Shown here one piece after another: positions 1,640 to 50,093 of a stretch of DNA of 64,000 nucleotides (position 1 is its first letter; every line of letters begins with the position of its first letter). The translations under genes were made by a program, and so were the position numbers. The stretch is from positions 104,479 through 168,478 of IMG/VR virus record IMGVR_UViG_3300028571_002266; one strand, given 5' to 3'. Origin of the DNA: a virus. The notes below the pieces were generated by a model. The model ran no database searches and was not told where the DNA came from. It was given only the letters and a program-made list of their open reading frames with translations.

Positions 1640-1666
1640 GAAATCCGTCTTCCGTTAAAGGACGGA
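1640..1666 (+). promoter_or_regulatory. Leader stem-loop of the GAAATCCG family, copy 1
   Basis: It begins directly after the deformylase stop codon with GAAATCCGTC. TCCGTC (1644-1649) pairs with GACGGA (1661-1666) across an 11-base loop, then TAAGGG lies before the ATG at 1683. Unlike most other copies I see no convincing promoter upstream, so this one may act inside a read-through transcript. Confidence 0.6.
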
Positions 1667-1682
1667 GCTAAGGGAATGAATT

Positions 1683-1961
1683 ATGTTAAGTCTCAAACAA
1701 TTAGAAGATGTGTGTCTGAATTCAGATGCGACTTCTCAAAAATGTCGATATATTTGTCAAGATGAAGTTGACAAAAATAAGTTTTACTGCTTAAAACTTT
1801 CTGCTAAAGCTAGCAAAATAGATAATGAAATTGAAAATTATATCAAAGTAATTAGCTTAAAAGGCAGAGATCCTTCTGATGAAAATTTACCATTAGGGGA
1901 CAATTGTTCTGGTTATCCTTTTCTTAGGCATATCGAACAAGGTTACGACAAGAAAAATTAG
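1683..1961 (+). CDS. Hypothetical protein, 92 aa
   Basis: Not recognised. It is a small soluble protein with four cysteines in its first half (CLNSDATSQKCRYIC and CLKL) and a fifth near the end. It has no signal peptide or membrane segment. The start is set by AAGGG 10 bases upstream, immediately after leader stem-loop copy 1, so expression may depend on that element. Its stop overlaps the end of the convergent lipoprotein gene by four bases. Confidence 0.6.
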   Translation: MLSLKQLEDVCLNSDATSQKCRYICQDEVDKNKFYCLKLSAKASKIDNEIENYIKVISLKGRDPSDENLPLGDNCSGYPFLRHIEQGYDKKN

Positions 1962-2458
1962 AGACTTTCTAGTCTCTCTCTGATTATCTGGTAGATATCC
2001 TTTCCTTTGTTTTCTTCAACAGCAGAGGAAAGGATATTTGCTTCTAGCTCATTACTGTTAAATCTTGCTATCTCTCTTACCATTAGTTCGTTCGTCTTTT
2101 CGCTGCTTATAGCTCTGTTTCGATAGTAGAACAATAGCATTGCTATGACAACTAATGCGAAGATGAAGATTAGTGCTCCATCGCCTTGGATTATTTGAAC
2201 TCCTGTGTTTTCGTTTCGTGAAATTGCGCCGTTTATGTTGACTAGGCCGCTTTGTATTTCTTTCAGAAGACTATTTTGGGCTGATAGATCTTGCCTAGTC
2301 TTCATGAGTTCGGCCATTACCCCATTTTGGTTTGTGCGTATATCCTCTATTTTACCATTTTGATTTTGTATTTTGGGGTTGTTTCTTGGGTTGAAGTTTG
2401 CACATCCTACCAAGTTTAACAAGGTTGCGGCTGCAATAATCAACAAAAATTTGTACAT
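1958..2458 (-). CDS. Lipoprotein with C-terminal membrane anchor
   Basis: The start is placed at 2458 because GGAGG lies just upstream and the product then begins with a lipoprotein signal (MYKFLLIIAAATLLNLVGC, lipobox LVGC). A polar region follows, rich in Asn and Gln with coiled-coil character, then a hydrophobic segment (ALIFIFALVVIAMLLFYY) and a charged C-terminal helix. A lipidated N-terminus plus an inner-membrane segment could span the envelope, as phage spanins or superinfection-exclusion lipoproteins do. I see no lysis gene beside it. Function is unassigned; the envelope location is fairly sure. Confidence 0.7.
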   Translation of the reverse strand: MYKFLLIIAAATLLNLVGCANFNPRNNPKIQNQNGKIEDIRTNQNGVMAELMKTRQDLSAQNSLLKEIQSGLVNINGAISRNENTGVQIIQGDGALIFIFALVVIAMLLFYYRNRAISSEKTNELMVREIARFNSNELEANILSSAVEENKGKDIYQIIRERLESL

Positions 2459-2477
2459 ACATCCTCCACAATATGTA

Positions 2478-2537
2478 TTTACAAGTGGGGAATTTCTTTG
2501 TACACTATGCTGAGAAATCCGTTTCATGTTGACGGAT
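2478..2537 (+). promoter_or_regulatory. Sigma70-like promoter plus leader stem-loop, copy 2
   Basis: TTTACA (2478-2483), a 17-base spacer and TACACT (2501-2506) form a good promoter. Seven bases later GAAATCCGT begins; ATCCGT (2517-2522) pairs with ACGGAT (2532-2537) across a 9-base loop. The transcript would therefore start at or just before the hairpin. GGAGG and GTG follow at 2550-2564. Confidence 0.7.
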
Positions 2538-2561
2538 GATCAACCCGCTGGAGGATTTGGC

Positions 2562-2972
2562 GTGGCTCAAGGCAAGGATGTTTTTTTCTTTGGTGATGAA
2601 TTTGATGATGAAAATTCATCAAGTGAAAGCGCACAGATTGCAAATGAATTTAAGCAGAATGCTAATTCATTAGTTGTACATCATTTGTCAAATTACTTCA
2701 AGGACAAGATGTTGCACACAGGAGGAAATGTTCCTGATCAATTACTAAATAGTCATAAAAGAATATCTATGGTTTTGAACTACACTGTTTCTAATGGTGT
2801 AGATCATGCTCATGAAAGACTAGAATTTTCTGAGGGGAGAAACAATGATGATGAGAATTCAGAGCTTATCGTCACTGTTCTTCATGGAATAGCCAAAAGT
2901 GGTGTTCCGAAGGAATTTGCTGGTGGTATGCTTTGTCTGCACTTGGAATTAATAGAAGGGATAGATTTTTGA
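2562..2972 (+). CDS. Hypothetical acidic protein, 136 aa
   Basis: Not recognised. GTG at 2562 is chosen because GGAGG sits 7 bases before it. An upstream in-frame ATG at 2526 falls inside leader stem-loop copy 2, which would make the stem coding. The N-terminus is acidic (GDEFDDENSSSESAQ) and the middle has VVHHLSNYFKDK and KRISMVLNYTVSNG. No membrane segment. It has its own promoter and conserved leader, which suggests early or regulated expression. Confidence 0.6.
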   Translation: MAQGKDVFFFGDEFDDENSSSESAQIANEFKQNANSLVVHHLSNYFKDKMLHTGGNVPDQLLNSHKRISMVLNYTVSNGVDHAHERLEFSEGRNNDDENSELIVTVLHGIAKSGVPKEFAGGMLCLHLELIEGIDF

Positions 2973-3283
2973 ATCTTGATTTATTATTGTTGTCAAGGCA
3001 ATTTGAGACTGTCGAATTGCCGAAGGAAAAGAAATACCTCCTGAGATATTTTGAAAATCCAGTTCAGGAGGCTTTTCTTAAATATTTCTTTGTATTTGGT
3101 AATTATGTTAATTTTTGTGACCACACTGGTCATTTCGTGCAGAAAAAATGGTTAAAACATCTGCATGAAAAATTAAAAACAATTGAAAAAGCCCACAAAG
3201 ATGCCAGATCTAACTTTGACATGGCTGGACTTGTTGAAATTGAAAAAGGTGAATTCAAATTCAGTCGTCATCTTCCTAAATAG
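2933..3283 (+). CDS. Hypothetical protein, up to 116 aa
   Basis: Not recognised. The frame overlaps the preceding gene. The start is uncertain: TTG at 2933 gives 116 residues, and TTG at 2969, preceded by AGAAGGG, gives 104 and looks better for ribosome binding. The protein has an aromatic-rich centre (KYFFVFGNYVNFCDHTGHF) followed by a Lys-rich helix (KKWLKHLHEKLKTIEKAHKDA). No signal peptide. Its function is not visible. Confidence 0.5.
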   Translation: MSALGINRRDRFLNLDLLLLSRQFETVELPKEKKYLLRYFENPVQEAFLKYFFVFGNYVNFCDHTGHFVQKKWLKHLHEKLKTIEKAHKDARSNFDMAGLVEIEKGEFKFSRHLPK

Positions 3284-3286
3284 TGT

Positions 3287-3529
3287 ATGGCACTAATATC
3301 ATTCGGCGATTGGCGTAAAAAATTTGATGAAGCAAGCCCTACTACAAGATTAAGGGCTGGAATTGAGGCGGGTAATTATCCCATGTCTGCTGGGGTGGCT
3401 ATGTCTCGATCCACACCAAGCCCATCTTTTGTAAAGAAGGCAATTGAAGAATTAGGATCACCTGAACATCCTAAAAGGAAAAATAAGACTAAAAAGAAAC
3501 GTAGGAATTCCAAGAAAAGGGAAAAATGA
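3287..3529 (+). CDS. Small basic protein with ISFGDW N-terminus
   Basis: An 80-residue protein with a Lys/Arg tail (KRKNKTKKKRRNSKKREK). Its N-terminus (ALISFGDWRKKFDEA) resembles that of the next gene (MIFFNEWMQERFDEA) although the rest differs. Similar short aromatic/acidic N-termini mark capsid-packaged proteins in T4-like phages, so this could be a DNA-binding internal virion protein; that is inference. Its end overlaps the next start as ATGA. No domain is recognised. Confidence 0.6.
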   Translation: MALISFGDWRKKFDEASPTTRLRAGIEAGNYPMSAGVAMSRSTPSPSFVKKAIEELGSPEHPKRKNKTKKKRRNSKKREK

Positions 3530-3924
3530 TTTTTTTCAATGAATGGATGCAGGAAAGATTCGATGAGGCTAAAAAGTCTCGTCGCACCCCTGTTCCTCAT
3601 TCTGATGTTGAAAAATGGATGCGTTCTTTAGAGCTTCTCAAGAAAGATCTTGAGGAATTGCAGAAAGCCAAGAAGAATGCTGCCCAAAGATTTGCTAGAG
3701 AAGCAAAAATCAAGAAGGAAAAAGAAAAGAAGGCTAAAGATGCCAAGAAGTTAAAAAAGAAAAAAGATTCAGAAATAGATAAAAAATCTGAAAAAGAACC
3801 TGAAGTTGAGAAGAAAGATAAAAAACCTGAAGTCAAAAAATATGATTCCAAGAAAAATGTTGTATCTGATAAGTTCAGACAGATTAAGAGTCAAAGGCGT
3901 AAAAATAATAAGCCTAGAGACTAA
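3526..3924 (+). CDS. Lysine-rich coiled-coil protein
   Basis: This 132-residue protein is almost a quarter to a third lysine from residue 40 on, arranged as a long charged helix with alternating K and E (VEKKDKKPEVKKYDSKK). It probably binds nucleic acid or forms a coiled coil. The N-terminus FFNEWMQERFDEA matches the neighbour's ISFGDWRKKFDEA, so the two may share a targeting signal. It is translationally coupled (ATGA) to that neighbour. A 50-base gap with a TATAAT follows. Confidence 0.6.
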   Translation: MIFFNEWMQERFDEAKKSRRTPVPHSDVEKWMRSLELLKKDLEELQKAKKNAAQRFAREAKIKKEKEKKAKDAKKLKKKKDSEIDKKSEKEPEVEKKDKKPEVKKYDSKKNVVSDKFRQIKSQRRKNNKPRD

Positions 3925-3974
3925 TTATTTTTAAGTTGGCAGTCTCCACTATAATTAAATAGCGGAGATAGATC

Positions 3975-4421
3975 ATGAGTACTGAAAATATTTGCAACGA
4001 TGATTCCTTAGATCAATCTAAGGCAAAAAATGCCAGAGATGTTCTGAAAGGCATTATTGTTTCAGAATCAAATCTTGAAACATATTTAATTGCAGTAGCT
4101 GTTCATAAAGATTCATCCAAGAATTTTATCAATAGAATAAGTTGTAAGAAGGGCATACCTCTTGATGGATATGTTTATGATGCTCAATCAGACAGTTATT
4201 TCATAGAATGCACTGATTTTTTGCATGTAGGGGTAATTCCTGTTTCTTTTGTTGCTACTGCTAAAGATTCTTATTTTTGGAAAATGAATATACCTTTGCC
4301 TGAAGCTGTCATTAAAAAGTATTTGACTGAGATCCAAAAGAAGGATTTGAAAAACTTTAAGAGTCATTTTAGCTCTCAAGATTACATGATTAATTATGTT
4401 CAAATGGTTAATCCAAACTGA
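3975..4421 (+). CDS. Hypothetical protein, 148 aa
   Basis: Not recognised. GGAGA lies before the ATG, and a TATAAT (3950-3955) upstream could be its promoter, though the -35 region is weak. The sequence is mixed alpha/beta with no membrane segment: a Ser/Thr-poor N-terminal helix, GIPLDGYVYDAQSDSYFIEC in the middle and a helical C-terminus (KYLTEIQKKDLKNF). Nothing around it fixes a role. Confidence 0.55.
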   Translation: MSTENICNDDSLDQSKAKNARDVLKGIIVSESNLETYLIAVAVHKDSSKNFINRISCKKGIPLDGYVYDAQSDSYFIECTDFLHVGVIPVSFVATAKDSYFWKMNIPLPEAVIKKYLTEIQKKDLKNFKSHFSSQDYMINYVQMVNPN

Positions 4422-4448
4422 ATTCATGTTTTTCTGGTTCTTCTGCCA

Positions 4449-4454
4449 TAAATA
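4449..4454 (+). promoter_or_regulatory. TAAATA box 5 bases before ATG
   Basis: TAAATA is followed by five bases and the ATG at 4460, with no Shine-Dalgarno. This matches the T4 late promoter (TATAAATA) in sequence. Transcription would begin about at the start codon. Confidence 0.5.
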
Positions 4455-4459
4455 ATTTC

Positions 4460-5287
4460 ATGGCATGCTCATCTACTGGAATAGGCTGTACTACTACAAC
4501 TGCAAAAAGTTGTCCTGACGAATATGGATGCGTTAGCGGCGTATGTGCCGATTTCATCATTCGTAGGCATGATACTAAACCATCTTTCAAGGTTAAGATC
4601 GAAGATTGCGATGGACCTCTTGATCTTACAGATCTTGTTCTTGAGGCCACAATGTGGGCCAAGGGGAAGCTTAAGGTTTCTCTTGATCAGAATGATTCAG
4701 TTATTGGTTTGGCTGATAATATTGGCTTTAATCAAGTAATGCAGGGCGATGTGATTATCATGGATCAGGCTAGATTGCCTGAGAAGATGCTTGTTGTTGG
4801 ATTTGATGAAGTAAATCGCCTCATTCGTGTCCAGAGAGGTTATCATGGAACCCCAGTGCAAAACTGGAGACGTGGCACAGGATTGAAAATCATTAAGTTT
4901 TCTAACGCAACTGCTACAACTGAAATGTTGTATCAGGACATCATTAACATTGATGGAACAACGACTAAGGATGTTTTAGTCGATAGTTTTTTAATTTATG
5001 ATTGGCAGAGTGAAGACACATGTCTTCCGGGTTGTTATTATTTGGAATTTAAGCTTTTGAAAATGGTGGTTTCTTTTGCTCTTGCTTATGATTCTTCTGT
5101 CCCAAGCAATCAAATTCCTAGTAATCTTTTGCCTGATGGAGTTATTCCGAGTTTTACTGATCCAAGTTTTATACCTTCCGATTTTGGTTGTTCTATGAAT
5201 CCACTTGTTGAATGGATAAGAAGGTTTCCTATTGATAAAGAAGGCTTTATAATTAAAATAACGAATACTTTTACGGCTGATGATTGA
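4460..5287 (+). CDS. Probable virion protein with baseplate-type N-terminal domain
   Basis: The 275-residue product begins with a Cys-rich segment (CSSTGIGC, CPDEYGCVSGVC), then RRHDTKPSFKVKIEDCDGPLDLTDL. That pattern, a disordered lead into a beta sandwich with the phrase DGxPxDLTD, is common in phage baseplate and fibre-attachment proteins (BppU-like N-terminal domains). A second part has RVQRGYHGTPVQNW and a C-terminal loop region rich in Pro and Ser. There is no Shine-Dalgarno; a TAAATA box lies 5 bases before ATG, as expected for a late gene. The exact virion position is unknown. Confidence 0.6.
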   Translation: MACSSTGIGCTTTTAKSCPDEYGCVSGVCADFIIRRHDTKPSFKVKIEDCDGPLDLTDLVLEATMWAKGKLKVSLDQNDSVIGLADNIGFNQVMQGDVIIMDQARLPEKMLVVGFDEVNRLIRVQRGYHGTPVQNWRRGTGLKIIKFSNATATTEMLYQDIINIDGTTTKDVLVDSFLIYDWQSEDTCLPGCYYLEFKLLKMVVSFALAYDSSVPSNQIPSNLLPDGVIPSFTDPSFIPSDFGCSMNPLVEWIRRFPIDKEGFIIKITNTFTADD

Positions 5288-5312
5288 CATCATAGAATTT
5301 AAGTCGTATTTT
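5284..5312 (+). promoter_or_regulatory. Sigma70-like promoter for IF-3
   Basis: TTGACA (5284-5289), 17 bases, then TATTTT (5307-5312). The first base of the transcript would be near 5319, about 11 bases before the chosen ATG at 5330, leaving room for the AGGG just upstream of it. Confidence 0.6.
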
Positions 5313-5329
5313 TGTATAGGGTCTTTTTT

Positions 5330-5899: not shown

Positions 5900-5910
5900 T
5901 GGGAAACATC

Positions 5911-7119: not shown

Positions 7120-7128
7120 GGTTGCGTA

Positions 7129-9416: not shown

Positions 9417-9719
9417 ATGTCTGGAAAATACAAGATTGTTTCATCTTCCAATATTATCACGATGGTCATCAATTTCAAGGATGAGAATGATGAAAATAGA
9501 ACTGTTAATGTTGGAGTTGATTATTTGATGAGCAAAGTATATTTTTTCGACGAAATTTCAAAAAAAATAGATTATGATGAACTAGAAAAGACTATTCTAA
9601 ATCATATCATTCCTGATATATGCGATTTACCTGAAATACCAGAAGATTTATTGATCAAGGTTGATGAAATTCGTCAGGGCAAGTTTGACAATGAAAGTCT
9701 TTTTAACATGCAAGGATAA
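9417..9719 (+). CDS. Hypothetical protein, 100 aa
   Basis: Not recognised. It begins with a beta-rich part (KIVSSSNIITMVINFKDENDENRTVNVGVDYL) and ends with a helical acidic part containing PDICDLPEIPEDLLIKV. No Shine-Dalgarno is seen in the 17 bases shared with the divergent gene. It is followed after two bases by the next start, so the three genes 9417-10571 form one unit ending in dUTPase. Confidence 0.5.
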   Translation: MSGKYKIVSSSNIITMVINFKDENDENRTVNVGVDYLMSKVYFFDEISKKIDYDELEKTILNHIIPDICDLPEIPEDLLIKVDEIRQGKFDNESLFNMQG

Positions 9720-19078: not shown

Positions 19079-19145
19079 TTGTTTTGCCCCTCTGAAAAGT
19101 TTATGATGCTGCTTCATGGAAATCCGTCCTCCGCTGACGGACGGA
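19079..19145 (+). promoter_or_regulatory. Promoter plus leader stem-loop, copy 3
   Basis: TTGTTT (19079-19084), a 17-base spacer and TATGAT (19102-19107) precede GAAATCCG at 19119. TCCGTCC (19123-19129) pairs with GGACGGA (19139-19145), 7 base pairs with a 9-base loop. AAGAGG follows, before the amidoligase ATG. The distance from -10 box to GAAATCC is 11 bases, longer than in most other copies. Confidence 0.65.
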
Positions 19146-19157: not shown

Positions 19158-20165
19158 ATGGAACAAAAGAAGTTAAAATATGTCAAGTTTGATAGTCAAA
19201 GGAGATTTGGCGTTGAATTAGAAGTTGGCAATGAGGTCAAAAAGAAAGCTGTTCAATCTGTTATTTCAACTGTTTCCAAGTACAACGCTTATGTTTCTCG
19301 CTATGCTCTTTCCAATAACAATTGTTATTGGCACATAAAGGATGATGCCACCTGTGGATTGAAAGGTCGCAATGGTCCTAAGGGTGTTGAGATTGCTTCT
19401 TTTATAGGAAAAGGAATAGATGATATTGATCATGTATCGTTTGTAAGCTCGAAATTAAACGATATTGGCTGTAAAGCAAATCATAATTGCGGCTTACATG
19501 TTCATGCAGAGGTTTCTGATCTTACCATGGATCAGGTTGCAGTTATTGTTGCTTGTTGGATCAAGATTGAACGATTAATGAGCATGATTTTACCAATAAG
19601 GCGCTATCAAAGTGAACACTGCAAGTTCATGTTTGCGCCATCTTGTAATGATAATGTTTTTGGTTTATGTCGGGAAAAATCATATACTTGTCATGATTTC
19701 TTGGAAGCTGTTTCTCCAAAGAATTTAAGTTATTTCGACAATGATGATAGAAGGTTTAATCTTAATTTGGTTAATTTGGTTCGTGCTGTAAATGACAACA
19801 GTCCAAATCGTCGCACTATTGAATTAAGGTGGCCAGAAGGCACTCTTGAGCCTCGTGACATTCGATGTTGGGTTAAGCTTTTTCTTTTGTTTATTGACAG
19901 TTGCAAAGACAGAAAGATGCCTAAAAATTTGCATCATTGTGGACTTGAAGAGGGATTGCAAATGTTTGGTCTGAGCCATTCAAAAAATATTTTTATTATC
20001 ATGAGCGAATCGATACATGAAACAAAAACATGGTTTTTGGAAAGAATTTTGAATCACAATGGTGACGCTGTTGAATTTTATAAATCTAAAGATGTTTTGA
20101 AGATTGCTAATGAGGCGAAGTTTATTTTGAATCAAATGTGGTCGCCAATTCGCATTTATGAATGA
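19158..20165 (+). CDS. Amidoligase (COOH-NH2 ligase) family enzyme
   Basis: Amidoligases of this glutamine-synthetase-like group are predicted to join carboxyl and amino groups in ATP-dependent modification of peptides or small molecules. Visible markers are FGVELEVG (17-24), WHIKDDAT (58-65), EIAS (78-81) and GLHVHAEV (112-119), which together would hold metal and ATP, and later RTIELRWPEG. The length is 335 residues. ATG 19158 is chosen because AAGAGG lies 7 bases before it, after leader stem-loop copy 3. Such ligases are known to co-occur with gamma-glutamylcyclotransferase-like genes; one is at 46184. The substrate is unknown. Confidence 0.78.
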   Translation: MEQKKLKYVKFDSQRRFGVELEVGNEVKKKAVQSVISTVSKYNAYVSRYALSNNNCYWHIKDDATCGLKGRNGPKGVEIASFIGKGIDDIDHVSFVSSKLNDIGCKANHNCGLHVHAEVSDLTMDQVAVIVACWIKIERLMSMILPIRRYQSEHCKFMFAPSCNDNVFGLCREKSYTCHDFLEAVSPKNLSYFDNDDRRFNLNLVNLVRAVNDNSPNRRTIELRWPEGTLEPRDIRCWVKLFLLFIDSCKDRKMPKNLHHCGLEEGLQMFGLSHSKNIFIIMSESIHETKTWFLERILNHNGDAVEFYKSKDVLKIANEAKFILNQMWSPIRIYE

Positions 20166-35030: not shown

Positions 35031-35095
35031 TTGACTACAATTGATTTGTTCGTTAATTTTTATTTCTTCAAAGAAATTCGTCGTCTGTTGACGGG
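35031..35095 (+). promoter_or_regulatory. Promoter plus leader stem-loop, copy 4
   Basis: TTGACT (35031-35036), 17 bases, TAATTT (35054-35059). GAAATTCGTC follows at 35073; CGTC (35079-35082) pairs with GACG (35090-35093), extended by two T-G pairs. The most divergent copy in the stem. Confidence 0.55.
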
Positions 35096-35109
35096 AAAGC
35101 AGTTTTTAT

Positions 35110-35346
35110 ATGTGGTTGAAATTGTCGAATCAATGGATTAATATGTCTCATATTGTCAGAGTTGAATTTAAGGTTGAAGGCAATACTAAGATAGCCACTT
35201 TTTATTCTACAAAAACAGGTGGTCAGGATCGAACATTTGTACAAGGTCCAGATGCAGATCTTGTAGAAAAATGGCTTAATGATCAGATTGCACCTCCTGT
35301 AGAAATCAAGGCTGTCAAGGCCAAGACCAAGTCTGTCAAAAAGTGA
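35110..35346 (+). CDS. Hypothetical protein, 78 aa
   Basis: Not recognised. A beta-rich start (WLKLSNQWINMSHIVRVEFK, KIATFYST) is followed by a helix (PDADLVEKWLNDQ) and a Lys-rich tail (KAVKAKTKSVKK). It lies behind leader stem-loop copy 4 and before copy 5, so it forms a single-gene transcript unless read through. The basic tail may bind nucleic acid. Confidence 0.6.
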   Translation: MWLKLSNQWINMSHIVRVEFKVEGNTKIATFYSTKTGGQDRTFVQGPDADLVEKWLNDQIAPPVEIKAVKAKTKSVKK

Positions 35347-35357: not shown

Positions 35358-35420
35358 TTGATTTTTGGGTTTTTTCGTCTATGATTCCTAGAGAAATCCG
35401 TTCATCAGTTGGTGGGCGGA
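35358..35420 (+). promoter_or_regulatory. Promoter plus leader stem-loop, copy 5
   Basis: TTGATT (35358-35363), 16 bases, TATGAT (35380-35385), then 7 bases and GAAATCCG. TCCGTTCATC (35397-35406) pairs with GGTGGGCGGA (35411-35420), 10 pairs including three G-T. The promoter and the first bases of the leader are nearly identical to copy 6 at 40683. Confidence 0.7.
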
Positions 35421-35442
35421 GGGAAAAGACGAGACATCAAAG

Positions 35443-36618
35443 ATGTTTTCCACTATTTTGACTTTAGCAGCATCTTTTTTTGGAATATGGGCTTTTTGTA
35501 AATATGTTGTTTTTATTGAAATAAGAGTAGACGGGAACACATTCAAGACTCTTTATGATTATTTCAAGAATGACAATAAATTTGTCTTGTATGAGGAATT
35601 CACTTCAGAAGCTCAATATCCTGTTTTCTATTCTGTTTTTTGTTTTCCAAAGTCAATTCCATGTTTTTTCCTAACTCGTAATGAGCGTCTTTTTCAAGCT
35701 GGCTGGCAAAGCAAAGATTACTTAACAGTGATCACCTGTTTCAGGTGGGATTATAATAGATTCAAGATTTTTTTGAATGTTGGTTTGAAAGATGCCAGTT
35801 TCAGAACTAGTGGTGTTCCAATAAGACTTCTTTTGCCTTTTGGAACGGATAAGATTGGTTCTTTGAAAATAAGAATGAATGAGCCAATGATAGATCCTGT
35901 TTTGTGGCGTGACTTCGACAATGAAGTTGGAGAAATGGTTTCTGGCAAGAGGATCAAGACAAGTGCTCTTCTTCATGGTTTGCCCGGAACTGGCAAGACA
36001 TCTTTAGTCAAATATTTGTCAACGAAATATGAATTGCCGATTATGATTTTCACTTTGAACCCAGAGTGGAACAACCATGACCTTTTGTTTATGTTTTCAA
36101 ACATTCCATCAAAATGCATAGTTCTTATGGAAGATTTTGATAATTATTTTGATAAAAGACAATGCACTATGGGCAATGACAGGAATTATATTAAATTTAC
36201 TTTTGATATAATTCTTAATGGTTTAGATGGTGTTTACAACACTTATGATAAAGTCGTTTTCATTATGACTGTTAATGATATTGACAAGGTTGATGATGCT
36301 TTGAAGGATAGACCGAGTCGTTTCAAATTCGTCAAGCATTTTGACAATCCATCTTTTGAGGCTAGGAGCAGGATATTGGGAGAAGATTGGGCTGATTTGA
36401 CAGCAGGAATGAATTTGGATCAAATCTATCGGATTAAGGAGTACCAAGATCAAGGACTGACTTTCAAAGAAGCTATGCTAAAATTAGGGAAAAATATTGA
36501 TTGTACTCAAATCAATAGAATTGCTGAAAATATTTATCGGCGTAGAATTGCATCTAACTTGCCCGGAAACGACAGAGACGATTGGTTTACTGCTGAGAAT
36601 ATAATCACATCAAAGTAA
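35443..36618 (+). CDS. Membrane-anchored AAA ATPase, BCS1-like
   Basis: An N-terminal hydrophobic segment (STILTLAASFFGIWAFCKYVVF, residues 3-24) anchors the 391-residue protein. A beta-rich middle domain follows, then an AAA module: Walker A GLPGTGKT (179-186), Walker B IVLMEDFD (226-233), sensor-like FIMTVNDIDKVDDAL and DRPSRFKF as arginine region. The order resembles mitochondrial BCS1, which moves folded protein across a membrane. Bacterial and phage relatives exist with unknown roles. It is expressed from stem-loop promoter copy 5. Confidence 0.85.
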   Translation: MFSTILTLAASFFGIWAFCKYVVFIEIRVDGNTFKTLYDYFKNDNKFVLYEEFTSEAQYPVFYSVFCFPKSIPCFFLTRNERLFQAGWQSKDYLTVITCFRWDYNRFKIFLNVGLKDASFRTSGVPIRLLLPFGTDKIGSLKIRMNEPMIDPVLWRDFDNEVGEMVSGKRIKTSALLHGLPGTGKTSLVKYLSTKYELPIMIFTLNPEWNNHDLLFMFSNIPSKCIVLMEDFDNYFDKRQCTMGNDRNYIKFTFDIILNGLDGVYNTYDKVVFIMTVNDIDKVDDALKDRPSRFKFVKHFDNPSFEARSRILGEDWADLTAGMNLDQIYRIKEYQDQGLTFKEAMLKLGKNIDCTQINRIAENIYRRRIASNLPGNDRDDWFTAENIITSK

Positions 36619-40012: not shown

Positions 40013-40660
40013 ATGATTGCCAGCATCAACAGTGTTTTTTCCATTTTCAACAGATTGTTTTTTGATTCCAATCTCTCTGCTCCAGAGATTATTGTTGATG
40101 TGAGTAAAAAAGTTTCATTAAGGTGGCAATCTGACGAAAATATTATTGTTATGGGTTCTGGTTTTGTAAATATAAATAAAGAAATTATTTGCGTCAACTT
40201 GCTTCATGAAATGATACATTTATCAAATTATAAAAATAAAGTTATAGATGTTAATGATAATCAGTATCATAACTCAAAATTTATGAAGCTTGCCGTAAAG
40301 TGCGGTTTGGTTGTTTATAAAGATAAGAATCAAGGTTGGTCAAACACAACATTGGAAATTGATAACAGTTTTTCGACTAAAGATTTTAAGATTGAACTTG
40401 ATAAAAATCAAAATCTCAAGTCAATTATTTCTAACATACATATTGATAATGAATTATTGAATGAGAACGAAAAGTCTTTAGTTTTAGCAATCAATAATTT
40501 GAAACCATCAAAAATTTTCTTCTTGAAATACGAATGTTCTTGTCCTCCTCCTCACAATAGTATCAGATCAGGTCGCCGACCAGATGGAAGTAATGCCCCA
40601 GATATAATTTGCGATAGGTGTAAAACAAAGTTTAATTGTGTTTCTCCTTTGTATGATTGA
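40013..40660 (+). CDS. SprT-like zinc metalloprotease
   Basis: HEMIH (65-69) with a further His86 in YHNSKFM forms a SprT-type zinc site, and a C-terminal zinc ribbon follows (Cys about 175, 177, 200, 203; CDRCKTKF). SprT/Spartan proteases clear DNA-protein crosslinks in eukaryotes; bacterial and phage forms are less known. The middle part (residues 115-165) is an insertion of charged helices. 215 residues. The promoter region has no strong site; GGAG lies 9 bases before ATG. Confidence 0.8.
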   Translation: MIASINSVFSIFNRLFFDSNLSAPEIIVDVSKKVSLRWQSDENIIVMGSGFVNINKEIICVNLLHEMIHLSNYKNKVIDVNDNQYHNSKFMKLAVKCGLVVYKDKNQGWSNTTLEIDNSFSTKDFKIELDKNQNLKSIISNIHIDNELLNENEKSLVLAINNLKPSKIFFLKYECSCPPPHNSIRSGRRPDGSNAPDIICDRCKTKFNCVSPLYD

Positions 40661-40678
40661 TTTTTTTGATCTTTTGGA

Positions 40679-41119
40679 TTAGTTGATTTTTGGGTTTTTT
40701 TCGTCTATGATTCCTAGAGAAATCCGTCCGGCGTTGACGGTATGATTAGCATGAGGAATTTCCAGTTCTGCATTAGGATCAAATCTTTTGATGATTTTTT
40801 GAAAGATCAAGTATAGCATTGCTGTAACAATCGTGAATTCAAGGAAGGCGTTGACTAGATTTCCAATTTCAAGTTCAAGTCCTTTTGTTGGCGTAAAAAC
40901 TAGATTGCGCCAGTTGCCATTAGTTGCTGATATCAAGTAATTGATGATTGGCATAACAAGTGACTCTGTCATAGAAGAAGCAAACTTTTGTGTTTGAGTT
41001 GCTAGAACAAGAGCTAAGGCCATGACAAAGAAATTTTTCTTGTAAGCAAATTTCTTGTATTCTTCAAATTCTTCTTTGATTCTTTCGGATTTGATGAAAT
41101 TTCTTTCTTCGTCATTCAT
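40679..41119 (-). CDS. MscL-like mechanosensitive channel protein
   Basis: ATG 41119 follows AAAGGT; an upstream ATG at 41152 would add 11 residues. A helical N-terminus leads to FFVMALALVLATQTQKFASSMTESLVMPI (30-58) and a second segment FLEFTIVTAMLYLIFQKIIKR (92-112), with a loop between. That is the MscL plan: an amphipathic start, pore helix TM1, loop, TM2. The Gly pattern of the MscL pore is not conserved, so gating may differ. Its last 20 residues are coded by the complement of stem-loop promoter copy 6, an unusual overlap. Confidence 0.6.
   Translation of the reverse strand: MNDEERNFIKSERIKEEFEEYKKFAYKKNFFVMALALVLATQTQKFASSMTESLVMPIINYLISATNGNWRNLVFTPTKGLELEIGNLVNAFLEFTIVTAMLYLIFQKIIKRFDPNAELEIPHANHTVNAGRISLGIIDEKNPKIN
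40683..40740 (+). promoter_or_regulatory. Promoter plus leader stem-loop, copy 6 (antisense to the channel gene)
   Basis: TTGATT (40683-40688), 17 bases, TATGAT (40706-40711), then 7 bases and GAAATCCGTC; CCGTC (40724-40728) pairs with GACGG (40736-40740). Its transcript would run antisense through the MscL-like gene toward the ParB-like gene. Confidence 0.65.
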
Positions 41120-41145
41120 TGTTTTGACCTTTTGGTTTAGTGGTG

Positions 41146-41174
41146 TTGACATTTTAACTGAGTCTGCTTACTTT
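41146..41174 (+). promoter_or_regulatory. Sigma70-like promoter of the ParB-like gene
   Basis: TTGACA (41146-41151), 17 bases, TACTTT (41169-41174). The leader is about 50 bases and ends with GAGG before the ATG at 41232. Confidence 0.65.
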
Positions 41175-45205: not shown

Positions 45206-45219
45206 ATTTTTAAGATCTA

Positions 45220-45280
45220 TTGACCTTTTGGTTCATTAGGATTATCATTATTTTGGAAATCCGCCTTCCGTTGATGAAAC
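45220..45280 (+). promoter_or_regulatory. Promoter plus leader stem-loop, copy 7
   Basis: TTGACC (45220-45225), 17 bases, TATCAT (45243-45248), 7 bases, then GAAATCCGCC. TCCGCCTTCCGTT (45260-45272) pairs with AACGGAGGGCGGA (45278-45290), 13 pairs and a 5-base loop, the longest stem of the family. The 3' arm runs into the GGAGGGC repeats. Confidence 0.75.
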
Positions 45281-45307
45281 GGAGGGCGGAGGGCGGAGGG
45301 CGGAGGG
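45281..45307 (+). repeat. Four tandem GGAGGGC heptamers
   Basis: GGAGGGC occurs three times and GGAGGGT once, back to back, in an AT-rich region. Four GGG runs 4 bases apart could form a G-quadruplex; GGAGG also mimics ribosome binding sites. The next start codon is 124 bases downstream. Confidence 0.85.
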
Positions 45308-45430
45308 TGTGATGTTTCGATGAATATCAGCTAAAATATTGTCTTTTTGGCTGTCAATGTAACTATCATAATAAATGAAAACTAATTTTCTTGTTTTGAG
45401 AGACTTCACATGCCAAGAGGGTTGAGCTAA

Positions 45431-46051
45431 ATGAGTTATATTGTTTCTACTTTTTTCAATGAGAACAGTTGGAATAAGTTTGGCCTCAATTGGGTCCGTA
45501 ATACCAAATCTGCATCACTCGATGCTCTAATTATAGGCAAAGATTTGCCAGAAGAAGCAATCACAAAGATTGCTGAACTTAATTTTCGTTATGTTCCTGT
45601 TTTGAATAAATTCAAGACAGATTGTAATGTGGATTACACTTTGGTTCAAAATTTAGAAAAAAATCAAAGATGTCTTTGGACTCAGCCTGAGATTTTGCCT
45701 AAAGCTGGAATTTATTCTAGAAATACGTCATCTGTTGACGGAGAATCTGATTTGATTTGTGGATTAAGTTCTTTTAATGTGCAGGATTTGACTCAGTCTG
45801 TAGTCAATTTATATGACAGGGCTGCAATGATAGAATCTTTGAAGCAGAAAATTGAAAATGTACATGGCAAATACTTGTCTAGCGATTATATGCTTGGAAC
45901 ATATGATTTTTGGAATGGATTTTTTGGTTGCAAGGCCTACCTCTTTGAAAGAGGATATCTACAAGGTTCTGTGCAAAGCGATGATCTTGTCTTGAATTTC
46001 TTTGTTTCCTTCGCTAATTCTTTTTCTTTACAAATAAAGGATTACTCTTAA
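45431..46051 (+). CDS. Hypothetical protein, 206 aa
   Basis: Not recognised. GAGGG lies 9 bases before the ATG. The front has a strand-helix pattern (SYIVSTFFNENSWNKFGLNW, DALIIGKDLPEEAITKIAEL) that could be part of a sugar-nucleotide binding fold. The rear has SDYMLGTYDFWNGFFGCKAYLF and SDDLVLNFFVSFANSF. A glycosyltransferase-related protein is possible but not shown. It is expressed from stem-loop promoter copy 7 with a leader of about 180 bases. Confidence 0.55.
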   Translation: MSYIVSTFFNENSWNKFGLNWVRNTKSASLDALIIGKDLPEEAITKIAELNFRYVPVLNKFKTDCNVDYTLVQNLEKNQRCLWTQPEILPKAGIYSRNTSSVDGESDLICGLSSFNVQDLTQSVVNLYDRAAMIESLKQKIENVHGKYLSSDYMLGTYDFWNGFFGCKAYLFERGYLQGSVQSDDLVLNFFVSFANSFSLQIKDYS

Positions 46052-46052
46052 A

Positions 46053-46187
46053 ATGATTTACAGCACACTATCTCATTTAGGTTCTTTTGTGTTTTTTATG
46101 CTAAGTGCTTTTGTAATTTGCACTTTCATTATTGCTATTACAAGAACTAATGAAGATGAGACAACAAGAATTAAGGAAGATGAATGA
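46053..46187 (+). CDS. Small membrane protein, 44 aa
   Basis: A short frame with one hydrophobic segment (GSFVFFMLSAFVICTFIIAI) and an acidic tail (TNEDETTRIKEDE). It starts one base after the preceding stop and overlaps the next gene as ATGA, so it is probably translated by coupling. Compact single-pass proteins like this can be toxins, holins or membrane regulators; no family is recognised. Confidence 0.6.
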   Translation: MIYSTLSHLGSFVFFMLSAFVICTFIIAITRTNEDETTRIKEDE

Positions 46188-46612
46188 GCGTATTGCTTTT
46201 TGTTTACGGAACTCTAAAAATAGGGTTTACTAGAAATTATGCTTTGCAGGGACAGATCTATTTGGGAACTGCTAAAACAAAGCCTGAATATAGCATGCAT
46301 GCAACAGGAGGATATCCCGCCCTTCTCAATAAAAAACTTGCCGAACAAAATAATATCAAGGCAGATAAATCTATTTTTGGTGAAATTTGGGAAGTTGATG
46401 AGGATTGTCTTGTAAGATTGGATAAAATAGAAGGCGTAGAAATTAATTTGTTTGAAAGATCAACCATAAATATCGAAGAGTTTACTCTTAGTCGTTTGCC
46501 TATTGACAAAACAGTTTGGAATGATGTACAAGAAAATAAAGCTTATGCTTATTTGTACAAACAGCCGATAAATGGAGCGGCATGCTGTGGATCTTTTTGG
46601 CATAGAAAGTAA
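46184..46612 (+). CDS. Gamma-glutamylcyclotransferase-fold enzyme
   Basis: The GGCT/AIG2 fold is shown by VYGTLKIG (7-14), GYPALL (43-48), FGEIWEV and LDKIEGV with the catalytic Glu83. These enzymes cyclise gamma-glutamyl amines to pyroglutamate (5-oxoproline) and release the amine. The length is 142 residues. AAGGA precedes the ATG, which overlaps the small membrane protein stop. In known bacterial and phage neighbourhoods this family is linked to amidoligases; an amidoligase is at 19158. It may remove or trim such peptide links. Confidence 0.85.
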   Translation: MSVLLFVYGTLKIGFTRNYALQGQIYLGTAKTKPEYSMHATGGYPALLNKKLAEQNNIKADKSIFGEIWEVDEDCLVRLDKIEGVEINLFERSTINIEEFTLSRLPIDKTVWNDVQENKAYAYLYKQPINGAACCGSFWHRK

Positions 46613-46620
46613 GGAATTTT

Positions 46621-47010
46621 ATGGATTATCTCTTTCTCTTATCAATATTCATCGCAGGATTTACTTTAGCTACATTTATATTTTTGTTTTATCGCATCTA
46701 TATGCTGAGACACATTAAATTAATTCAATCTCAATATTTGCTTGAAGATCTCGAATTAGCAACTAAAGAACAACTTTTGACTGAATTTCGCAATAGACCA
46801 AACAATTCTTATATTCTCTTAATGCCAATGTCCAGCAAAGAAGAAATGGGAATGAAAATTGAGTTGAATAGCTTCAAGCCTTATGATAGCGTTAATCTTT
46901 TGCATCTGGCCACAACCCTTATTTTCAGAGAAATGAAAAATAAAGGTATGTCAGTCCCAGAATTACCTGCAATAGATGTTCCTTCGACAGAAGACGGATC
47001 ACAACGGTAA
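46621..47010 (+). CDS. Single-pass membrane protein, 129 aa
   Basis: An N-terminal hydrophobic segment (DYLFLLSIFIAGFTLATFIFLFY, residues 2-24) is followed by a charged cytoplasmic domain with LLEDLELATKEQLLTEF and SYILLMPMSSKEEMGMKIEL. It follows the GGCT gene by 8 bases with AAGGA before the ATG. Function unknown. Confidence 0.6.
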   Translation: MDYLFLLSIFIAGFTLATFIFLFYRIYMLRHIKLIQSQYLLEDLELATKEQLLTEFRNRPNNSYILLMPMSSKEEMGMKIELNSFKPYDSVNLLHLATTLIFREMKNKGMSVPELPAIDVPSTEDGSQR

Positions 47011-47038
47011 TCATCATTTGTCGCTTTAAGAGGTTAAG

Positions 47039-48181
47039 ATGGAACCCAAAAGGTCTAGAATCTGCTTGAATACTATGGTCGCCAATGAAGCCCATGTAAT
47101 CAAAAGGATGCTTGAATCTTGTTATAATTATATTGACTATTGGATTATTCAGGACAATGGCTCCACTGACGGAACACAAGAAATAATTCGTAACTTCTTT
47201 CAGGATAAGAACATACCCGGATTTCTTTATGAAATTTCTTGGCAGTATCCCGGATATAATCGTGATCATGCTTTACAAACAGCTTTGCAAGCTTCACACA
47301 ACTGTGATTGGATATTGAGAATCGACGCTGATGAGATTTTGCAGGTCGATGATGAACTTGATTGGAAGCTAATCAACGATACAACTATCGAAAGCTTCAA
47401 TATAGTTGCGCTGCAAGGTCAATGCAGTTATCAACGCTGTTGGCTATGGAACTCTAAGCTTCCTTGGAAATTCAAGCATGATAAGCGTCATGAAACCATT
47501 TATATGGACAAAGATAATATAGGCGAAGGATTCCAGAGGGTTTCTCTTTCTCCAAAATTCAAACACTTAATCATGGGTGACGGCAGGACTTGGTTCAATC
47601 CCACTAAGTTTTATTCCGATGCTTTAGAGATAGAGAAGGATCTTTTGTCTGACAGTAAGATGTCTAATGACACATATCATCTTTTCTATATTGGCAAAAG
47701 CTATAGAGATGCAGTTCTTGATCCAAGAACAAAGTGGCCTTTTGGAACAAATCATTTACATGAATGTGCAAGAAGAGCTATATTCTTTTTTGAGCAATAT
47801 TTGAATGTTGTTCATCAATACTCAGAAACTAAAAAGCCGAAGCACATGGATGAAATGGCCTACATGGTTCTAGTTTTCATGGCAGAGTGCCAAAGAATAA
47901 TCAAAGATGATGAGGCTGCTATTTCATTATTGATGCAGGCAGAGCCATTTTGCCCAGAAAGAAACGAACATCTTCTTGAAATTGCACAAATTTATTCTGA
48001 TCATGGTCAAAGAATAGGTTTGCTTAACGCAACAACAAGACTTGTTGGTCAATCAAGAAAGAATCCATTCCCAAGATTTTGTTTCTTCATAAATAATGAA
48101 GCTTATTACGACACAGGAAAATATGTGAAACACCTTCACAGTATTGCTTGTTCTTTCAACAATATTTTGCCAGTAGATTGA
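47039..48181 (+). CDS. Family 2 glycosyltransferase with helical C-terminus
   Basis: The first 230 residues are a GT-A domain: ICLNTMVANEAHVIKRML (8-25), IIQDNGSTDGT (36-46), GYNRDHALQTAL and WILRIDADEIL (91-101, metal site). The last 130 residues are helical with FMAECQRIIKDDEAAISLL and EPFCPERNEHLLEIAQIY, resembling TPR repeats. The TTGxxxxR and MVANE start are typical of a group common in cyanobacteria and phages. GAGG lies 7 bases before the ATG. 380 residues. Confidence 0.88.
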   Translation: MEPKRSRICLNTMVANEAHVIKRMLESCYNYIDYWIIQDNGSTDGTQEIIRNFFQDKNIPGFLYEISWQYPGYNRDHALQTALQASHNCDWILRIDADEILQVDDELDWKLINDTTIESFNIVALQGQCSYQRCWLWNSKLPWKFKHDKRHETIYMDKDNIGEGFQRVSLSPKFKHLIMGDGRTWFNPTKFYSDALEIEKDLLSDSKMSNDTYHLFYIGKSYRDAVLDPRTKWPFGTNHLHECARRAIFFFEQYLNVVHQYSETKKPKHMDEMAYMVLVFMAECQRIIKDDEAAISLLMQAEPFCPERNEHLLEIAQIYSDHGQRIGLLNATTRLVGQSRKNPFPRFCFFINNEAYYDTGKYVKHLHSIACSFNNILPVD

Positions 48182-48655
48182 TTAGAATGCCTTTCTAAGC
48201 TCATTGATTGTTCTCTCAGCATCAACGTGTAATATTCCAGTTCCTCCCCAGTCATGCCATTCTTGGATGTTACTGGGGAGATCGTCTATTAGTATTTTTC
48301 CTGAACTAGCGTAATATTTTTTCAACTTGCTTTTCTCAACACAGATAATTCTATTTCCAGAAACGCCAATATGATTCTGGCACCATATATTTTTACCTTC
48401 ACATGCTTCTTTTGACTCTGAACATGATGTCAGGATATAAGGTTTATATTCTTTGATAAAATCCCATAGGATTTGACAGTCTTTTGTTTCAGGTAGATTT
48501 GCCCAAAATTCAATTTTTTCTTTGCTTGTGAGCTTGTCGATATAACTGTTGAAGTAGTCTATGAATGTTTCTCCGTTGCTAAGATGAAATCCATATATAT
48601 CACTTAGTTTTCCAGCTAAATCAACAAGAACACCATCTAAATCACAATATATCAT
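48182..48655 (-). CDS. HAD-superfamily phosphatase (5'-nucleotidase-like)
   Basis: The catalytic DLDGVLVDL (5-13, nucleophile Asp5, acid Asp7), a Thr-Ser switch in YILTSCSES, and KILIDDLPSNIQEW with the second acid pair give all HAD motifs in 157 residues. Such phage proteins often hydrolyse deoxynucleoside monophosphates or sugar phosphates. It is convergent with the glycosyltransferase, the stops abutting. There is no obvious ribosome site. Confidence 0.85.
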   Translation of the reverse strand: MIYCDLDGVLVDLAGKLSDIYGFHLSNGETFIDYFNSYIDKLTSKEKIEFWANLPETKDCQILWDFIKEYKPYILTSCSESKEACEGKNIWCQNHIGVSGNRIICVEKSKLKKYYASSGKILIDDLPSNIQEWHDWGGTGILHVDAERTINELRKAF

Positions 48656-48742
48656 AATTTTTTTTTATTCTCTGTTTACAAATTACCTTAAATTCTATAA
48701 GTTATTATAGGATAAAGCAAATTTTTGAAAGGAATCGATGAG

Positions 48743-49003
48743 ATGAAAAACCCATTAGGCAAAAACGTCGATCTTAGACTATGTGTGGTCGATAGCACAT
48801 ATGACAATGAATTGGACGAATGGATGATTGATAAGATTTCTGCAACGGATTCAGTCTTGAAAATTGCAAGTCCAAGTCAAGAAGAAATATGCAGCAAGGT
48901 TAAGCTTTGCAGGAAGAAGCATATTGCTTATGTTTCCAAGAATGACATATTTGTTGTACATCGTGATACCAAACAGCCAATAGTATGCTTGAAAAAAGTT
49001 TGA
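48743..49003 (+). CDS. Hypothetical protein, 86 aa
   Basis: Not recognised. ATG 48743 follows AAAGGA. A first half with VDLRLCVVDSTYDNELDEWMI and a second half alternating charged helices and strands (KVKLCRKKHIAYVSKNDIFVV) suggest a compact alpha/beta protein. A TATAGG box is upstream. Confidence 0.5.
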   Translation: MKNPLGKNVDLRLCVVDSTYDNELDEWMIDKISATDSVLKIASPSQEEICSKVKLCRKKHIAYVSKNDIFVVHRDTKQPIVCLKKV

Positions 49004-49042
49004 TTTTTTATCTGAAGAGTTTTCTGAAATAACTGAGATTCG

Positions 49043-49882
49043 ATGCGAATAAGAGATGTGGAGATCAGAGTCACAGACGGAGAACTGGGAATGAACGTCA
49101 AGAAAGTTTGGTTTTACATCCATCGTTTCGATGCCGCTAAAACTGCACATGTAGCCAGAATAATTCTCAAAAAGTACCCTTTCATCAAGCCTACTGTTGA
49201 AGGTGACAAGTGCATCCTTTTGTGCAGCGATATGGGTAAAGATCCATCTTCTTGGGTCATTGAGAAGCTTGTTGAAAATAAAAGGTTTTTGGGGCATTTC
49301 CATTCAGAAAGCAAGAGATATAATGCCGAAAGGCATGAATATCTGACAGAAATGCATCATGCTGCTGTCTGTCGTTTTGGTTTTTTTGACTTATATGACG
49401 TTCCTGACGATTTAGAATTTGCCAATTTTATTGTTGGGAAGTTACAAAACACTCTTTCAGGTCAGCCAGCTTATCTTGCTGAAGAGAATGCTTCTATCAG
49501 CAGTGGTCATAAATTGAATTTTTCAAATGAGATTAAAGTGGAAAGGAGGAAGATGTATATCTATAACCTCGTGAGATTCCACAATTACTCTAAGGAATTG
49601 GCAACATTAACAATTGACCGAAAGTTTCCAGAATGGAAAGATATAAAAATCGAGAAGAAAAAGATCAGTCCTCGTGAGGAAAGAAAAAGGGCTAGAGATG
49701 AGTACAAGAAAGCTTTGGAACTTGCCAAGAAGTTAGCTTTCATGTCGGCGAAAGATAGAAAGAATCATCTCAGTCAAAATAACAACTTGTTTGAATTTTT
49801 ACTTTTCGTTAAGCTTTGCAAGGTAAAGGGCAGAGAGTGGATTTTGGAAAATGTTGGACCTGTTCCCGGAATTGTCGAGTAA
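49043..49882 (+). CDS. Hypothetical protein, 279 aa
   Basis: Not recognised. The start at ATG 49043 is plausible, ATG 49091 is an alternative. A His-rich stretch (LTEMHHAAVCRFGFFDLYDV, and FLGHFHSESKRYNAERHEYL before it) could bind metal. The last third is a long Lys-rich helix (KKISPREERKRARDEYKKAL to KKLAFMSAKDRKNHL) that may form a coiled coil. Basic overall. Confidence 0.55.
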   Translation: MRIRDVEIRVTDGELGMNVKKVWFYIHRFDAAKTAHVARIILKKYPFIKPTVEGDKCILLCSDMGKDPSSWVIEKLVENKRFLGHFHSESKRYNAERHEYLTEMHHAAVCRFGFFDLYDVPDDLEFANFIVGKLQNTLSGQPAYLAEENASISSGHKLNFSNEIKVERRKMYIYNLVRFHNYSKELATLTIDRKFPEWKDIKIEKKKISPREERKRARDEYKKALELAKKLAFMSAKDRKNHLSQNNNLFEFLLFVKLCKVKGREWILENVGPVPGIVE

Positions 49883-49913
49883 AAAATTAGGTCTGTGATT
49901 GCTTAGACCTGTC

Positions 49914-50093
49914 TTAATTTGATGGGTTTAAGCAATCTGACCTTCTTTGAAGGCGGCTTATAGTTACTTTAAGAAATCCGTTTTCTTTTGATGGAATACC
50001 AAACTTATATTTTATGGCTAGAATGGCTTCAAGATATTTTTTAATTTCATCTGTTTTTTTGGAGGATAAGTCCAGTTTATTGTCTATAATCAT
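49914..50093 (-). CDS. Small basic protein, 59 aa
   Basis: ATG 50093 is preceded by AAGGG at 5 bases. The product (DLSSKKTDEIKKYLEAILAI, then KYKFGIPSKENGFLKVTISR) is a helix plus a short basic sheet. The bases coding its last 20 residues contain, on the other strand, stem-loop promoter copy 8, as happens with the MscL-like gene and copy 6. It may be real or a chance frame; the ribosome site favours real. Confidence 0.4.
   Translation of the reverse strand: MIIDNKLDLSSKKTDEIKKYLEAILAIKYKFGIPSKENGFLKVTISRLQRRSDCLNPSN
49937..49995 (+). promoter_or_regulatory. Promoter plus leader stem-loop, copy 8
   Basis: CTGACC (49937-49942), 16 bases, TATAGT (49959-49964), 8 bases, then GAAATCCG. TCCGTT (49977-49982) pairs with GATGGA (49990-49995), six pairs including two G-T. 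The weakest promoter of the set. The first plus-strand gene downstream is at 50189. Confidence 0.5.

Follow-up and report, generated by a model that had tools for sequence, protein, structure and literature searches.

We note that the eight stem-loops dispersed over the window, by which we mean the whole 64,000-nt stretch analysed here, are very probably (about 0.93) mRNA leaders that reproduce, as solitary mimics, the 23-nt crRNA handle used by the type V-I CRISPR-Cas system of this same phage. This system, of a type also known on huge phages according to the available text of PMC7162821, is encoded by the phage itself 15-20 kb upstream of the window. It comprises a Cas12i gene (PADLOC Cas12i, E=0; Cas12i2, E 3e-90), with the RuvC motifs GLDNNQT, VEGDL and SDVVAAVN, and beside it an array of 13 repeats with spacers that are all unique (G000:88023-88885, outside the window). 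The repeat is 36 nt long and the crRNA handle 23 nt, and the Cas12i gene lies on the same phage record as the window copies, at least 20 kb from them. A sequence-only reading had described eight leader stem-loops belonging to no named family. All eight are present and all fold as 5' stem-loops, but the list was incomplete, as it lacked a further match at 45719, the 13-copy array and the solitary copies in other assemblies and relatives, and the claim of no named family fell once the elements were matched to the Cas12i crRNA repeat handle.

The assignment draws on a covariance model built from the array repeats alone (R2), for which the top nine window matches, all on the + strand, are the eight sites and a ninth at 45719..45741 (20.1 bits) that lies within the coding frame 45431-46051 and may be a chance match. 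Five of the eight sites score 19-34 bits and the other three 12-15 bits; in a control with R2 on 15 relatives without detected Cas12i (2.62 Mb) the best match reached 18.3 bits, and five sites score above every control match while 49973, 35393 and 45256 do not. The similarity of the copies to the 36-nt repeat ends at A(-23) in 18 of 19 copies, a comparison that takes in the phage C site discussed below, and A(-23) is the reported Cas12i2 cut site in pre-crRNA (available text of PMC7567891); an A at -23 is absent in 45256, 19119 and G001:40660. The copies agree with the array repeat in their unpaired GAAAT tail and in GTTGACGG, the loop with the 3' arm, and the motif GAAAT[CT]CG occurs ten times on the + strand of the window and once on the - strand, with neither of the extra + occurrences, at 9666 and 26010, rising above the window noise level with R2. 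Like the type V-I crRNA handle, the elements consist of 23 nt, a tail plus a short stem-loop, in a phage that has a Cas12i gene and array; unlike the array repeats, they stand alone, lack the 5' half of the repeat and lie where mRNAs are predicted to begin. In the window the eight copies are scattered, none of them adjoining another repeat, as solitary repeat units are defined, and a few copies sit between genes within an operon. At the Rfam gathering threshold the only match in the window was a tRNA, and many of the 44 stretches returned by one search look like chance matches.

The earlier reading had taken covariation of the arms as the mark of a selected RNA structure, an argument that did not survive: over five pairs and 26 distinct aligned handles there is one two-sided change, which 167 of 500 shuffles reach. 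In four of the five handle pairs just one of the two bases changes, mostly through G-U, and the only strong departures from the common handle are 35393 (10-bp stem) and 45256 (13-bp stem). These long perfect stems might suggest that the leaders are generic 5' hairpins guarding early mRNAs from decay, with the likeness to the repeat secondary, and different hairpins do stand at orthologous leaders in two relatives, TCCGTTGACAAACGGA in phage B (at the 45256 leader) and GTCCTCAAGAGAGGAC in the sister phage D. We regard this explanation as improbable, since 5'-end protection by itself does not account for a GAAAU tail, loop and 3' arm that match the array repeat; moreover, such a hairpin is missing from most promoter-like sites of the window and the covariation is not significant. 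Nothing in the analysis spoke for the other earlier suggestion, that the stems may mark phage mRNA for phage-modified ribosomes.

The promoters described earlier were confirmed. Five of the eight copies (2514, 35393, 40719, 45256 and 49973) have a -10/-35 pair matching at least 9 of 12 positions, with 7-8 nt between the end of the -10 and GAAAT: a sigma70-like TTTACA-17-TACACT at 2478..2506 before copy 2, TTGATT-16-TATGAT at 35358..35385 before copy 5, TTGATT-17-TATGAT at 40683..40711 before copy 6 (the last two having a 37-nt stretch in common), TTGACC-17-TATCAT at 45220..45248 before copy 7 and CTGACC-16-TATAGT at 49937..49964 before copy 8, all on the + strand. The enrichment has a binomial P of 1.6e-9 against all positions and 1.6e-8 against noncoding + strand positions. 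Two copies have a slightly more distant promoter, as had been noted (19119, best pair 8, with the -10 at 11 nt; 35073, weaker boxes at 12-15 nt), and the site at 1640 alone has none (best pair 7 of 12). The proposal that the stem forms the very 5' end of the transcript is thus supported by promoter spacing in five of the eight copies, whose promoters would start RNA at A(-23), where mature crRNA begins. The spacing of the promoter of cas12i itself likewise places the expected RNA start at A(-23), with AGAAAUCCG as the predicted start of the message.

The copies, all on the + strand, differ in what follows them. Copy 1 (AGAAATCCGTCTTCCGTTAAAGGACGGA, 1639..1667, 25.9 bits with R2) lies between ORF 1145-1639 and ORF 1683-1961, with a start codon 17 nt past the handle. 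Copy 2 (AGAAATCCGTTTCATGTTGACGG, 2513..2535, 19.1 bits) leads a gene whose GTG start at 2562 is 26 nt past the handle; at this locus phage B keeps the promoter and RBS, and the handle is absent. Copy 3 (19118..19145, 29.4 bits) stands 17 nt before the start codon of an amidoligase-like gene (19158-20165, Amidoligase_2); contig L166 has a handle-like element at this position (15.6 bits with R2), and phages B and D have none. Copy 4 (AGAAATTCGTCGTCTGTTGACGG, 35072..35098, 26.1 bits) is the leader of ORF 35110-35346 and has an orthologous handle in phage B, and the handle-like copy 5 with its 10-bp stem (35392..35421, only 13.3 bits) is the leader of an AAA ATPase gene (35443-36618). Copy 6 (AGAAATCCGTCCGGCGTTGACGG, 40718..40740, 34.4 bits) overlaps the last part of ORF 40679-41152 (-) in antisense, has no same-strand start within 250 nt and falls inside a segment, 40659-40741, missing from phage B. 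The handle-like copy 7 (45255..45291, only 12.3 bits), predicted to fold into a 13-bp stem with GGAGGGC repeats, lies 141 nt upstream of the start codon of ORF 45431-46051, and copy 8 (AGAAATCCGTTTTCTTTTGATGG, 49972..49995) lies 194 nt upstream of the nearest start codon (ORF 50189-50881); its 14.9 bits with R2 are within the control background, and it reaches 32.1 bits with R1, a model whose 12 training sequences include both 49973 and the phage C site.

Taking in the phage C site, the start codon follows the end of the handle at a distance of 11-26 nt in 14 of 20 copies (12 of 20 minus two doubtful ORFs), a proximity that is weak when measured against noncoding positions (P 0.004-0.006). This layout leads us to propose, tentatively and at somewhat under even odds, that the handles are leaders to which the phage's Cas12i binds, repressing translation of and/or capping a small set of phage mRNAs, cas12i included, and that they serve also as a sponge. 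The suggestion that the stems bind a phage protein would fit this proposal, the obvious candidate being the Cas12i encoded by the phage, which goes with a repeat sharing this 23-nt handle. Cas12i would bind the handle at the 5' end of the message; transcription starting at A(-23) would give the 5' end of a mature crRNA, and in the promoterless copies Cas12i itself could cut at A(-23). The Cas12i guide channel would then be filled by the following 11-26 nt, where most copies have the RBS and start codon, and the outcome would be a translation block and/or an mRNA cap for a few phage genes, with feedback where cas12i is among the targets. The leaders would also act as a sponge because the handles would compete with array crRNAs. 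In favour of Cas12i-bound leaders is the presence of a Cas12i gene and an array with the same handle in one record. Against them stand the lack of a nearby same-strand start at 40719 and the distances of 141 and 194 nt at 45256 and 49973, the long stems of 35393 and 45256 that are unlike the handle, the absence of handles at three of the genes in phage B, handles without a Cas12i found in the parts examined (B and G007) and Cas12i without a handle found in 57.8 kb (D).

Alternatively, the first ~20 nt past the handle might be guides steering Cas12i to a target promoter, as scaRNA/tracr-L do with Cas9, and the leader RNA would indeed have the form of a mature crRNA with its 5' end at A(-23). 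We hold this to be highly improbable: a comparison of the 25 nt past the handle with ~230 kb (the window, L009, L010 and parts of phages B and D) gave, apart from self matches, nothing that chance or orthology would not explain, and self-targeting by the leaders is unsupported in the same comparison. The array spacers searched against 1.67 Mb of sequence gave nothing beyond 15-nt matches (E about 0.03).

Further solitary copies occur in other assemblies of the phage and in relatives, some on the opposite strand, and at G001:49401 a second, weaker unit lies 33 nt away. Handles turn over: the genes at 2562, 19158 and 35443 have none in phage B. No Cas12i was found in the parts examined of phage B and G007, both of which have handles. 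Phage D has a Cas12i without an array and with two RuvC residues missing, and 57.8 kb of it gave no handle by model, hairpin search or leader 8-mers. A candidate site in phage C (L012 and eight more contigs) scored 15.8 bits with R2, inside the control background, lies antisense in a 484-aa frame and was taken for chance. That handles come and go, and that a full-length solitary repeat (29 of 36) at L106:7648-7683 precedes a stretch differing between two close relatives, might indicate that the elements are inert leftovers, either stray repeats of CRISPR origin or handle copies carried along with promoter modules; this we find very improbable, given that the match is limited to the processed 23-nt part in 18 of 19 copies, that the promoter spacing is non-random and that the nine best window matches are on one strand, though opposite-strand copies exist elsewhere.

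The solitary repeat units and Racr RNAs of PMC10651486 are, in its available text, also single mimics of CRISPR repeats carried by viral genomes, and a promoter often stands directly before them. By analogy, the units might be decoys that trap the Cas12i of a competitor, be it a rival phage or the host, in dead complexes, the leader position just ensuring strong expression. A fragment from another sample that carries the same repeat with different spacers favours such decoys, as do the two handles of G007, one followed by an inverted repeat resembling a terminator, in the parts of which no Cas12i was detected; gain and loss of handles would also fit an arms race. On balance we judge this rather unlikely. 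The available text of PMC10651486 describes SRUs as unassociated with cas genes, whereas here the matching cas gene is on the same phage, so that decoys would strike its own system, and the copies are handle only, several per genome and mostly before start codons. Short start-codon spacing and promoterless operon copies are not needed for a decoy, and one exact pattern found no bacterial genome with such an array. Searching the species genomes with the exact handle pattern gave four single matches, taken for chance, and a few short, non-exhaustive patterns gave no Cas12i relative there. Similar non-exhaustive scans of IMG/VR proteins recovered another assembly of the phage and, in one scan, phage D, which with fragment L107 had first come from a pol III-alpha neighbour scan; INPHARED held no near match to window 15000-39000 and no Cas12i relative by tblastn.

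Returning to Cas12i-bound leaders, autoregulation by ribosomal proteins offers a familiar parallel, in which a protein that binds RNA represses messages carrying a mimic of its usual RNA ligand close to the RBS; in the phage the mimicked ligand would be the crRNA. T4-type phages have promoter/stem-loop (PeSL) cassettes, on which our literature search found no paper. Among engineered systems, CARTRIDGE places crRNA or sgRNA in the 5'-UTR, as crRNA-type elements would be placed here, so that Cas binding represses translation, in the case of AsCas12a even when its RNase activity is removed; it is synthetic and works in mammalian cells, and the text searched of PMC10115826 does not mention Cas12i, whereas the phage layout is natural and bacterial. 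With scaRNA/tracr-L and Cas9 (available text of PMC8616872) a CRISPR effector controls genes, its own operon in the case of tracr-L, through DNA targets, of which none was found for the phage leaders in ~230 kb. The Cas12i of phage D may be compared with TldR, phage-encoded nuclease-dead regulators derived from TnpB, which are RNA-guided on DNA (available text of PMC13418256), whereas that Cas12i has no known guide. The literature searched, which excluded subscription papers, preprints and supplements, turned up no description of Cas12i handles serving naturally as leaders of mRNAs.

More speculatively, and with distinctly less confidence than the leaders themselves, we suggest that Cas12i is put to dual use, as a guide-directed nuclease and as an RNA-binding regulator of phage mRNAs, that of cas12i included, which either start with a crRNA handle as transcribed or are trimmed back to one, and that in phage D the RNA-binding side alone survives in an arrayless Cas12i that has lost RuvC residues. 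Solitary CRISPR repeats in viruses have been read as anti-CRISPR decoys; handle-only copies at predicted mRNA 5' ends, near start codons and with the matching Cas gene aboard, suggest that a Cas effector may control genes with no guide target involved. If the dual-use reading is true, these leaders would be a natural counterpart of engineered Cas-responsive leaders. The copies also have a bearing on the question why phages retain Cas12i, and on how a Cas12i lacking RuvC residues and an array can persist.

The eight sites and stems that the sequence-only reading described in the window are real, and computation establishes their likeness to the 23-nt handle (the processed repeat part of the crRNA of the phage's own type V-I CRISPR-Cas system, Cas12i), the handle boundary and its promoter spacing. 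The window covers G000:C1:104479-168478 of an IMG/VR virus record of 168,478 bases. Thirteen of the 17 strict pattern matches in the whole record form a single CRISPR array (G000:88023-88885, spacing mostly ~72 nt), with a 36-nt repeat CCCACAATACCTGAGAAATCCGTCCTACGTTGACGG and unique spacers. Upstream of it lies an ORF (G000:84741-87881, as read) called as Cas12i by PADLOC (E=0), whose best solved match is Cas12i2 (E 3e-90) and whose RuvC motifs are GLDNNQT, VEGDL and SDVVAAVN. Another assembly of this phage (G001, 225,527 bases) has an identical Cas12i and the array in common, and a 59-kb record (G009) contains copies 40719 and 49973. An IMG/VR fragment of 6.9 kb, taken from a different sample (L028/L105), combines the same repeat and neighbour genes (97-99% protein identity) with spacers that differ by eye, so the array seems to undergo turnover. 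Two array spacers (L009:3013-3888) are short, 19 and 20 nt, the others being 36-41 nt; the phage also carries a tmRNA gene (L009:8214-8568; Rfam RF00023, 100 bits) that ARAGORN did not call, and a long ORF upstream of cas12i (L010:3-2486) resembles, by eye, a terminase-type protein with an intein.

According to PMC7567891, the repeat part of the Cas12i2 crRNA spans 23 nt, A(-23) to G(-1), and consists of a 5' tail of 6 nt plus a stem-loop; Cas12i2 cuts pre-crRNA immediately 5' of A(-23), a step for which A(-23), G(-22) and A(-21) are important. A covariance model trained on array repeats only (R2) was scanned unfiltered across the window, and its top nine matches, every one on the + strand, were the eight sites and a coding match: 40718 (34.4 bits), 19118 (29.4), 35072 (26.1), 1639 (25.9), 45719 (20.1, coding), 2513 (19.1), 49972 (14.9), 35392 (13.3) and 45255 (12.3), the tenth scoring 11.1 bits. 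Control scores peaked at 16.7 bits over 40 relatives' loci (794 kb, default filters) and at 18.3 bits over 2.62 Mb from 15 long records of relatives, for six of which scoring was limited to 150 candidates; none of these 15 records contained a Cas12i match. Five of the eight sites, plus 45719, score above all control matches; 49973, 35393 and 45256 do not, and are assigned by position and promoter. Among 19 copies compared (including 45719, the cas12i leader and phage C), 18 are identical to the repeat at 12-21 of 23 handle positions, a figure biased upward by the partial picking of sites with the motif GAAAT[CT]CG, and at 0-6 of the 13 positions 5' of A(-23), an unbiased figure for which chance gives ~3. 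One copy departs from this pattern: in a close relative, a solitary repeat is present at full length (29/36), at a point where the two genomes cease to match.

Covariation of the stem arms had been offered as the mark of a selected RNA structure, and this argument fails: 26 distinct handles yield 1 two-sided cell change, a value reached in 167 of 500 shuffles. Conservation is mainly at the sequence level, and the idea of an RNA ligand stands on other grounds. One leader stem (window 45281-45308) has tandem GGAGGGC repeats, a possible G-quadruplex former.

Five of the eight copies have a sigma70-like -10 box whose end lies 7-8 nt 5' of GAAAT, the handle start (P 1.6e-9 relative to all positions and 1.6e-8 relative to the noncoding + strand), and the predicted first RNA base of promoter-bearing copies is A(-23), or G in 45256. 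The cas12i gene has the same layout (L010:3671-3745; G000:84670-84744), TTTACA-17-TACACT-7-AGAAATCCG, its predicted RNA beginning AGAAATCCG, although the stem is a different one; the 8-bp inverted repeat CACTGCTC/GAGCAGTG flanks this leader. Spacer F14 of the related L028 array matches 14 nt of this leader directly after AGAAATCCG (L010:3718-3731; E 0.053), perhaps by chance. Copies w1640, L089 and L106 are intergenic, without a clear promoter. From handle end to start codon we count 17, 26, 17, 15 and 23 nt in five window copies, 15 and 15 in two further copies of this phage, 19 and 17 in phage B, 17 in L166, 14 in L106, 12 and 17 in G007 (ORFs doubtful) and 11 in cas12i; the remaining six of 20 copies lie 58, 62, 141 or 194 nt from a start or lack one. 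Within the window, four of eight handles are followed at 10-30 nt by a first start that has a weak SD (P 2e-5 relative to all positions and 0.004 relative to noncoding ones), and three by one that has a stronger SD (2e-4 and 0.006); five handles are noncoding once ORFs of at least 100 aa are masked, and 2514, 19119 and 40719 overlap such frames.

Cas12i would bind these leaders, and there it could occlude the RBS or cap the 5' end, with feedback on cas12i through its own leader; at w1640, L089 and L106, its cut would create the same 5' end as in promoter-started copies. A sister phage, D (L130, G011), carries at the same locus an arrayless Cas12i of 1011 aa (L130:6299-9334, IMGVR_UViG_3300047481_002095), 41% identical to this phage's by alignment and 38% over the tblastn segment. 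In this protein N replaces the RuvC-I aspartate (GLNKNQT) and T replaces the glutamate of RuvC-II (VVTKN). It retains the third aspartate, as well as two histidines and an N-terminal lysine (numbering inexact) that align with Cas12i2 residues reported in PMC7567891 to serve pre-crRNA cutting. There is no array after the gene, and the only repeats seen in 57.8 kb of D were of low complexity or close repeats in two copies. This picture fits selection for a protein that binds RNA but does not cut, although no handle family emerged from these 57.8 kb.

Phage B (G004-G006) is collinear with the window (54,128 of 64,000 bases align, pieces 65-96%) and has three strong handles, one orthologous to w35073. 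Its gene 2562 retains promoter and RBS, with the handle absent; w19119 is present in L166 and absent in B and D, w40719 lies inside an 83-bp segment missing from B, and w35393 sits at a homology break. This turnover, with a 37-nt promoter stretch common to w35393 and w40719, favours mobile promoter-handle modules and argues against a conserved regulon.

The main rival, drawn from PMC10651486, is that solitary repeats serve as RNA anti-CRISPRs (Racrs). With G007 and B aside, the distribution suggests an association of handles with the Cas12i-bearing lineage; because Cas12i was not found in the examined parts of B and G007, a Racr role is possible there. One G007 handle (L118:11647-11720; Cas12i not detected) comes directly after a stop codon, is followed by a terminator-like inverted repeat AGAGTTACAG/CTGTAACTCT, and is a Racr candidate. 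Since a leader that binds Cas12i would also be a sponge, leader regulation and a Racr role may hold simultaneously.
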